From a virus: a stretch of DNA of 20,412 bases. The DNA lies in the IMG/VR virus record IMGVR_UViG_3300020411_000902, positions 1 to 20,412 of that record; one strand, written 5' to 3'. The position numbers were made by a program, and so were the translations under genes. This document shows, in pieces, positions 1-8,950 of the stretch. The notes beneath the pieces were generated by a model. It was not told the DNA's origin and made no database searches. It saw only the letters and a program-made list of their open reading frames with translations. The number at the start of each line of letters is the position of its first letter. The first letter of the stretch is position 1.

Positions 1-75
1 GGAGTCGAACCTTCAAGTCCCGCCAGGAACATCAGTTAAACAGACTGACACGTTTACCAATTTCGTCACCTCACA
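1..75 (-). tRNA. Partial tRNA with long variable arm, apparent anticodon GUU (3' end cut by window edge)
   Basis: Read on the minus strand this folds as a tRNA. It has a 7-base 5' acceptor strand (75-69), U8 and G9, and a 3-bp D stem (ACG/CGT) with an 11-base loop containing GG. The anticodon stem is a perfect 5 bp (TCAGT/ACTGA, 48-44 with 36-32). A 17-base variable arm (31-15) has its own 5-bp stem GTTCC/GGGAC. The T arm carries the TTCGACT loop (9-3). The 3' half of the T stem and acceptor lie outside the window. The 7-base anticodon loop is CTGTTTA, giving GUU (Asn), but a long variable arm is normal only for Leu, Ser and Tyr. Position 37 is a pyrimidine, which is unusual. That this is a tRNA is well supported; its amino-acid identity is not. 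It lies 9 bases after a synthetase-like gene. Confidence 0.82.
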
Positions 76-84
76 ATGGAGGCT

Positions 85-882
85 CTATGAAAGAGCACTC
101 ATTAGACGTTGCATACCGATTCCTCCACCACTTCTAGGAAAGAAGTCAAACTCTAGGAACTCATCAAGTTCTTTTTCAACTCTTTCCTTACCAAATAATT
201 TGTAAAGTAGTTCAGCATATTGTCCATCAGAAATAGTATGGAATGTTTCACGCATCTGATCCTTATCTGTACTACGTTCAGCACTACCAATGGTTTCCAT
301 ACCACCAATAATTACATCAATCTTCTTACTAGTATCATCAGAATTCCTTGCCATATTCCAGAAAGGTGATGTCCATTCAGGGAACTTAGTAATCATACCA
401 AGACCAATTGATTCTTCATGATCATGGTCAAGTTCATCTGTATCAAACTTTTTCTGCCACTCTTTATAAGTTTTAACATTAACTTGATCTAATGGTAATC
501 CAATATACTCACATAATTCTTTTTCCATATCTTCTAATTCTTTAACACCACCTTTCATTTCAAACTCAAACATAGGGAAGATGGTTTCATGTCTTCCTTC
601 AACTGGATTTGGTTCTGCTCTATATGAAGTAGATACACAAAAGAAACCTGCAGCATCAGGGTTGGAAAGTAATTCATATTCTAACCACATTTGTCCAGTC
701 TGTGGTAGTGGCCATACTTCTCCATTATACTCATAAGTTGCTACTGTTTCTGGATCTTCACATGCAGCAAGAATACTCAATCTATTCTGAGTATGGACTT
801 CTAGGAAATTTTTAGACAAAAAAAATGACCTCAATAGGTCAACAGTCTCACTATACTTTTTTGGATCAATCAAAGCGGTCAT
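85..882 (-). CDS. Stand-alone class II aminoacyl-tRNA synthetase-like catalytic core (Asx family)
   Basis: A 265-residue protein carrying the class II synthetase core. A motif 1-like helix/strand lies at about residues 16-31 and a substrate loop TGQM at 62-65. Motif 2 begins SYRAE (86-90) and continues to a strand ending FPMFEFE (102-108). A GGMETIGSAER segment (193-203) resembles AsnRS. Motif 3 is GGGIGMQR (252-259), with the conserved Arg at 259. Motif 2 looks like AspRS/AsnRS, while the GGGIG of motif 3 recalls asparagine synthetase AsnA. The N-terminal OB-fold that binds the anticodon in AspRS, AsnRS and LysRS is absent, so canonical charging is doubtful. Amino-acid activation, asparagine synthesis or modification of another target are alternatives. 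I start at the ATG at 882; a TTG at 897 is in frame but lies too close to the late promoter. That promoter implies late expression, and a tRNA follows directly. Confidence 0.82.
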   Translation of the reverse strand: MTALIDPKKYSETVDLLRSFFLSKNFLEVHTQNRLSILAACEDPETVATYEYNGEVWPLPQTGQMWLEYELLSNPDAAGFFCVSTSYRAEPNPVEGRHETIFPMFEFEMKGGVKELEDMEKELCEYIGLPLDQVNVKTYKEWQKKFDTDELDHDHEESIGLGMITKFPEWTSPFWNMARNSDDTSKKIDVIIGGMETIGSAERSTDKDQMRETFHTISDGQYAELLYKLFGKERVEKELDEFLEFDFFPRSGGGIGMQRLMSALS

Positions 883-904: not shown

Positions 905-912
905 TATTTATA
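905..912 (-). promoter_or_regulatory. Late promoter TATAAATA before the synthetase-like gene
   Basis: This is an exact match to the T4 late promoter core TATAAATA on the minus strand, 22 bases before the ATG at 882. It overlaps the TAA stop of the 43-residue gene and lies directly after the U-tract of a terminator. It should be read by gp55-bearing RNA polymerase. Confidence 0.72.
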
Positions 913-8683: not shown

Positions 8684-8950
8684 CTAATTGCCATTACCAC
8701 CACCGCCATTACCGCCACCATTGCTGCCACCGTTACCACCATTACCATTACCATTTCCACTATGCCCATTCCCATTAGCATGTCCGTTACCGCTTTTTCC
8801 ATTACCATTTTCTCCATTTTGATGTCGACCTACACCCCACCAGCGCATACCATATATTTTACCAGTAGGAACACAGTCTTTTAGTTTTGAATCCCATTTC
8901 ATACCAGCAGGACATTTTTTCTGCTCCATGAAATTATTGAAGGTTTTCAT
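8684..8950 (-). CDS. Gly/Asn-rich protein with capsid-targeting-like N-terminus
   Basis: An 88-residue protein in three parts. Residues 1-10 (MKTFNNFMEQ) resemble the capsid-targeting sequence of T4 internal head proteins (MKTYQEFIAE). Residues 13-29 form a compact Cys-flanked unit, CPAGMKWDSKLKDCVP, whose two Cys are 13 apart. From about residue 45 the chain is almost only Gly and Asn with scattered Ser, Lys and His. If the targeting reading is right, gp21 could cut after Glu9 (F-M-E) and leave the rest inside the head; this is inference. Its ATG overlaps the stop of the upstream gene (ATGA). No enzyme function is suggested. Confidence 0.78.
   Translation of the reverse strand: MKTFNNFMEQKKCPAGMKWDSKLKDCVPTGKIYGMRWWGVGRHQNGENGNGKSGNGHANGNGHSGNGNGNGGNGGSNGGGNGGGGNGN
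8687..8818 (-). repeat. Low-complexity (GGN/NGN)n coding tract
   Basis: This DNA encodes residues 45-88 of the Gly/Asn-rich protein. On the plus strand it shows repeating units of the type CCATTACCACCA and CCGCCATTA. The units are imperfect, so it is a degenerate tandem repeat and not a CRISPR array. The number of units probably varies between relatives. Confidence 0.7.

Follow-up and report, generated by a model that had tools for sequence, protein, structure and literature searches.

A free-standing asparaginyl-tRNA synthetase-like core and an unusual class II tRNA form an obligate pair in cyanophages: a possible new entry to pyrimidine synthesis

We have analyzed a 20.4 kb fragment from IMG/VR (the window, by which we mean this whole stretch of DNA) that comes from a relative of the T4-like cyanophages. 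At one end lie a gene, here called HOM, a tRNA and a promoter, all on the minus strand, with the following features.

905..912, minus strand: T4-type late promoter TATAAATA, lying 23 nt ahead of the HOM start codon
85..882, minus strand: HOM coding sequence, 265 amino acids, a free-standing class IIb catalytic core resembling asparaginyl-tRNA synthetase (AsnRS); ATG at 882-880, TAG at 87-85
679..702, minus strand: QTGQMWLE, residues 61-68, equivalent of SGQLNxE of AsnRS; Glu68 corresponds to the AsnRS Glu
559..645, minus strand: class II motif 2, residues 80-108 (R88, E90, H98, F102); ATP site retained
94..144, minus strand: class II motif 3, residues 247-263, PRSGGGIGxxR, reading PR..(T/Q)R where most AsnRS have PH..ER
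1..75, minus strand: class II tRNA with GUU anticodon, 5′ 75 nt only, the last 11 nt lying beyond the contig end
38..41, minus strand: tRNA positions 34-37, GUUU, made up of the GUU anticodon and U37; the same in all 54 distinct relatives
17..30, minus strand: long variable arm GUUCC-UGGC-GGGAC, differing in length and sequence among relatives

This arrangement bears out the first-pass annotation of the DNA, which had described an Asx-type class II core ending 9 bases before a tRNA with an asparagine anticodon, behind a late promoter. The coding sequence runs from 882 to 85 and the tRNA starts at 75, leaving exactly 9 bases (84-76) between stop codon and tRNA. The promoter sequence TATAAATA at 912 to 905 is one of two minus-strand copies in the window, which has none on the plus strand. 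In 29 of 81 relatives NATAAATA lies within 70 nt of the ATG, where about 0.03 would be expected per stretch, and others that were inspected carry a CTAAATA variant at the promoter site. The anticodon loop of the window tRNA is CUGUUUA, in which GUU reads Asn. ARAGORN and Rfam returned no tRNA match in the window because the contig stops 11 nt short of the tRNA 3′ end; a covariance model built from relatives (R1) matches positions 75 to 1 with 81 bits (E 5e-19), cut at the 3′ side. The complete tRNA is seen at L002:3308-3393, on a contig encoding a protein identical to HOM. Elsewhere in the window, amid structural genes, 8684-8950 (minus strand) holds an 88-aa open reading frame with a glycine/asparagine-rich low-complexity tail.

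HOM matches the Pfam family PF00152 (tRNA-synt_2; D, K, N) with E 2.8e-15 over the core only, and PHROG 29758, which is annotated 'function unknown'. Its AlphaFold model (pLDDT 93.4) is structurally closest to AsnRS (Z 25.8, 8h53), followed by AspRS and archaeal asparagine synthetase A (23.7), and aligns solely to residues 230-528 of 8h53; the N-terminal anticodon-binding (OB) domain is absent. Scores fall far below the NCBIfam cut-offs both for AsnRS (TIGR00457, 22.9 bits against 342.6) and for archaeal asparagine synthetase A (NF005055, 25.5 bits against 389). The residues of the AsnRS ATP and asparagine sites are kept (E42, Q64, E68, R88, E90, H98, F102, E196, R203, R259), and R250 is invariant in 65 of 65 aligned members. 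The active-site residues are invariant across the phage and cell members of the family.

A scan of IMG/VR found at least 591 stretches encoding a relative of HOM, and linkage was studied in the best 80 of these together with cultured phages. A complete tRNA lies 7-12 nt past the HOM stop codon in all 79 relatives with sufficient downstream sequence, among them P-SSM2, P-SSM5 and P-SSM7, where a gene annotated 'tRNA ligase' is followed by an annotated tRNA-Asn. The converse search, using the tRNA only, recovered 80 contigs; the HOM gene was adjacent in 71 and about 100 nt away in two, and the other seven run out at the tRNA or immediately before it; where inspected, their edges still read as HOM-like coding sequence. 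A tRNA without the HOM gene was thus found in none of the 80. The genomic setting of the pair varies: P-SSM2 and P-SSM5 have it next to a 'lipase' gene, P-SSM7 between the tRNA cluster on the gp23 side and gp3, and the window alongside a gp46-like gene. The P-SSM7 genome further carries purine genes along with PyrE, nrdAB and td.

In 54 distinct copies the tRNA forms a cloverleaf with a 7-bp acceptor stem, a T loop and a long variable arm. Pairing is retained in 99.9% of cells of the alignment, with two-sided changes in 19 of 24 pairs, amounting to 253 such cells compared with 70 in shuffles. Retention of the tRNA in every testable relative, the preserved base pairs and the two-sided changes together exclude chance, and the conclusion that emerges is that HOM and the tRNA are a real, mutually obligate unit within the cyanophage clade. 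The dedicated pair proposed in the first-pass annotation therefore stands as a unit: the linkage is mutual, and it recurs in at least four lineages (see below) and at varied genome positions.

The sequence of this tRNA is a peculiar mixture. U1:A72, G73 and G34 U35 U36 U37 are invariant in all 54 copies from the cyanophage clade, 11 of the 54 have C at position 33, and CCA is not encoded. GUU and G73 constitute the asparagine identity set, and U1-A72 is the element recognized by GatCAB (PMC9976931, PMC4206432). As read from its sequence, the phage tRNA is of full asparagine identity (GUU, G73 and usually U1:A72). Of the features of an elongator tRNA-Asn, all 54 copies have GUU and G73, and all lack the short variable loop and the purine at position 37. 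Among tRNAs readable by ARAGORN, U37 is present in 208 of 208 gene-linked class II tRNAs and in 0 of 156 other tRNAs from the same loci, counted as sequences as called with near-copies included. With U37 and C33, normal decoding looks doubtful, and the tRNA is probably non-decoding; that GUUU might read the four bases AAAC is a further conceivable role. Synthesis of asparagine on tRNA exists, and in yeast aspartylation is blocked by t6A37, a modification that U37 is unable to carry (PMC9976931, PMC4206432). The earlier suggestion that recognition of the long arm makes up for the absent anticodon-binding domain now looks weak: close relatives differ in the length and sequence of this arm (their tRNAs span 82-97 nt), whereas GUU is unchanged in 54 of 54. 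An invariant GUU beside an enzyme that has no domain with which to read it suggests that a host synthetase reads the anticodon.

The special tRNA also accompanies distant members of the family (L090, L092, L097, L105, L108, L126, L096, L143 and L119), as well as the family gene in two MAG contigs that may be viral (L216 and L222). On a quick tree of the family, the tRNA-paired members fall in at least four places. These tRNAs are not uniform. Those of L090, L092, L097, L108 and L126 have A1:U72, those of L096 and L143 have G at position 33, and that of L119 has the aspartate anticodon GUC together with U1:A72, G73 and U37. The tRNA overlaps the gene end in L108 and L216, and lies about 94-1050 nt from the gene in L092, L096, L097, L126 and L143. 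With many other phage members of the family, two huge phages included, the special tRNA was not found, and the plasmid records searched contained no HOM homologue. The huge phages (L085, LR756501, 735 kb; L086, LR756508, 484 kb) encode the enzyme at 44-47% identity with no special tRNA nearby; they have matches to the tRNA model elsewhere, and those read are ordinary tRNAs. At L104:3810-3882 the last codons of the homologue contain the start of a class I tRNA-Asn of ordinary type (A37, U1:A72, G73). A separate set of tRNA-like elements occurs on the minus strand of large-phage contigs (L256:1501-1586, L258:1501-1613, L259:1501-1621 and L262:939-1061). They have in common an acceptor of AGTCAGG or AGTTAGG with CCTGACT, A73 and normal D and T arms; their anticodon region is long or odd, they may be intron-bearing tRNAs, and ARAGORN calls only some of them.

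Homologues 57-58% identical to HOM are encoded by Pasteurella atlantica (on a complete chromosome), Candidatus Bandiella and Aureispira, and further cellular homologues occur in many Patescibacteria. In Bandiella the gene order is homologue-PyrF-PyrE-PyrD-Prs-transketolase and in P. atlantica PyrD, homologue, PyrF, PyrE; these names are a reading of the sequences, with PyrD and PyrF backed by Pfam matches at the same places. Across 80 homologue loci the neighbors include a PyrF-type gene in 24, PyrD in 17 and PyrE in 5. Among 20 genomes with a homologue, only one each scored above cut-off for PyrB, PyrC and CarB, against 13 for dihydroorotate dehydrogenase (DHODH) and 16 for OMP decarboxylase, the PyrB, PyrC and CarB absences being weakened as evidence because several of these genomes are small MAGs; in 14 of 14 control genomes PyrB, CarB, DHODH and OMP decarboxylase were all above cut-off. 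Within 100 genomes of the Bacteroidota family of Aureispira, PyrB is absent from all three that have the homologue and present in 91 of the 97 others (p = 5e-4). Aureispira and P. atlantica are the strongest cases for a link to pyrimidines. Taken together, the cellular homologues share operons with pyr genes and appear to take the place of PyrB, PyrC and CarB; the phage gene shows neither. A search of cellular genomes with the tRNA model did not reveal the special tRNA in any named genome; the top matches read are ordinary Leu-type tRNAs, together with the MAG contigs L216 and L222.

Other neighborhoods were noted. In L173 and L230 an amidohydrolase gene and an argininosuccinate-lyase-like gene lie upstream of the homologue, L173 also having a PyrE-like gene, and L234 has an ArgH-like neighbor as in that cluster. 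In the Patescibacteria L199, L210, L213, L220 and L246 the homologue is placed between tRNA-dihydrouridine-synthase-like and DnaX-like genes, and the Dus-like protein, a flavoprotein of the DHODH fold, might substitute for PyrD. A role for the homologue as the sole AsnRS of the cell was considered and dropped, a full AsnRS being above cut-off in 5 of 10 homologue genomes.

What is observed is that gene and tRNA are obligate partners, how this tRNA is built, that the enzyme has an active site like that of AsnRS, and that among the cellular relatives the gene is linked to pyr operons and pathway genes are missing. We infer a reaction, its sharing by phage and cell enzymes, and a role for the tRNA. 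The explanation that we tentatively favor is an asparagine-consuming enzyme that makes dihydroorotate, served in the phages by a non-decoding, host-charged tRNA that carries asparagine. A dihydroorotate-making enzyme is preferred because the cellular homologues adjoin pyrD, pyrE and pyrF, while their genomes are mostly without CarB, PyrB and PyrC and, among those named, showed no such tRNA. The cellular relatives would stand in for carbamoyl-phosphate synthetase, aspartate carbamoyltransferase and dihydroorotase, feeding PyrD, PyrE and PyrF. In the chemistry envisaged, asparagine or its carbamate would be adenylated, bicarbonate would join the α-amine, and the side-chain amide would close the ring. 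Between them asparagine and HCO3- hold all the atoms of dihydroorotate; ATP would drive the reaction, and a single enzyme could suffice. On this proposal HOM may have arisen from the catalytic core of AsnRS as a ligase that binds asparagine and ATP, and with its tRNA may constitute a two-gene cassette. Because the active-site residues are common to both, the phage and cell enzymes are suggested to perform one chemistry, and the phage gene would be a nucleotide-supply gene.

The tRNA would enter as follows. With an anticodon of Asn or Asp identity and G73, it could be charged by the host AspRS or AsnRS; U1:A72 would allow host GatCAB to convert the attached Asp to Asn by amidation; and U37 and C33 would exclude it from the ribosome, so that the asparagine goes to the enzyme. 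The tRNA of L119 points to the same exclusion, since a GUC tRNA bearing asparagine would, if it decoded, miscode Asp codons. This role as asparagine carrier is the least certain step.

Its main rival is direct charging, in which the phage enzyme itself places asparagine on the phage tRNA for phage translation or another aminoacyl-tRNA-dependent reaction. The obligate linkage, the AsnRS-like asparagine and ATP sites, the AsnRS fold matches and a tRNA of Asn identity with G73 are what a charging pair should display. We nevertheless consider it rather unlikely: the anticodon is invariant although the enzyme lacks an anticodon domain, U37 and C33 set the tRNA apart from decoding tRNAs, and cellular members lie in pyrimidine operons without the special tRNA, in some cases in a cell that also encodes a complete AsnRS. 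Whether homologues usually occur without the tRNA, the check attached to the first-pass annotation, has a divided answer, since the cyanophage clade always has it and the wider family, in cells and many phages, does not. That absence and the cellular ties to pyrimidine genes argue that charging is not the basic role of the family. An asparagine synthetase of the archaeal AS-AR type (Asp + NH3 + ATP to Asn), with the tRNA supplementing Asn-tRNA, is more doubtful still. Archaeal asparagine synthetase A has the same kind of stand-alone core and matches the HOM structure at Z 23.5-23.7, and the NF005055 model is weakly matched; however, that match is far below its cut-off, AsnRS is slightly the better fit, and the pyr operons and missing PyrB and PyrC are left unexplained.

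Phage tRNAs are known to evade host anticodon nucleases, and the altered anticodon loop could make this a tRNA-Asn variant of that kind, kept charged by the enzyme. Yet GUU, the usual nuclease target, is invariant and we saw no link to defense in the cell neighborhoods of the family, making an anti-defense role very improbable. We give marginally less credence again to a regulatory RNA within the enzyme transcript, acting in autoregulation or as a sensor of asparagine charging. A single transcript, the 7-12 nt spacing or overlap and the lack of encoded CCA fit such an element; the perfect tRNA processing geometry (7-bp acceptor, G73) and the separation of about 94-1050 nt in five distant members do not. 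The dihydroorotate explanation has difficulties of its own. Many homologue genomes are small symbiont MAGs that are pathway-poor anyway, 7 of 20 lack DHODH, and loss of CarB can have other causes. Neither the special tRNA nor an adjoining pyr gene accompanies many of the phage homologues, and the tRNA-Asn at the end of the L104 gene is a normal one with A37. The A1:U72 pair of the five distant tRNAs misfits recognition by GatCAB, and host synthetases of class IIb might have trouble accommodating the long variable arm.

Taken at its widest, and held a little more loosely than the explanation of the phage pair, the proposal is of a new pyrimidine entry, in which a synthetase-derived enzyme might convert asparagine and bicarbonate to dihydroorotate in place of CarAB-PyrB-PyrC, in symbionts, Patescibacteria, Bacteroidota and phages, with marine phages adding a non-decoding asparagine-carrier tRNA. 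If true, this would be a second start to pyrimidine synthesis and a viral tRNA devoted to metabolism instead of decoding, and the HOM family would be a candidate for the missing pyrimidine steps of many reduced genomes. On a conservative reading there is a natural, mutually obligate pair of synthetase core and tRNA that is common in ocean phages, with an odd anticodon loop that predicts a tRNA charged yet not decoding. A literature search on the pair, on P-SSM2 and P-SSM7, and on a synthetase-like pyrimidine enzyme found nothing relevant, which does not prove absence.

Among known systems, class IIb AsnRS has in common with HOM the fold, the class II motifs, the Glu and Arg of the asparagine pocket and the ATP site, and differs in its OB-fold anticodon domain, its PH..ER motif 3 and its membership of TIGR00457. 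Archaeal asparagine synthetase A (3p8t, 3reu) is like HOM a stand-alone class IIb core of similar size, and is a metabolic paralogue of a synthetase; HOM differs in scoring far below its family cut-off and in gene context. EpmA/GenX (Z 22.7) likewise has a class IIb core without an anticodon domain. Aminoacyl-tRNA synthetase paralogues of this type have a non-translational job, and none is known to have a dedicated tRNA. The system of ND-AspRS and GatCAB for tRNA-dependent asparagine synthesis (PMC4206432) shares a tRNA with G73 and U1:A72 as the would-be site of asparagine formation, but the present tRNA differs in being carried by a phage and coupled to an AsnRS-like enzyme, and in possessing U37 and a long variable arm. 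The phage tRNA resembles tRNA-Asn in its anticodon and discriminator base and tRNA-Leu in its D arm and long variable arm; neither unites these traits, and its U37 is unique among the tRNAs in these loci.
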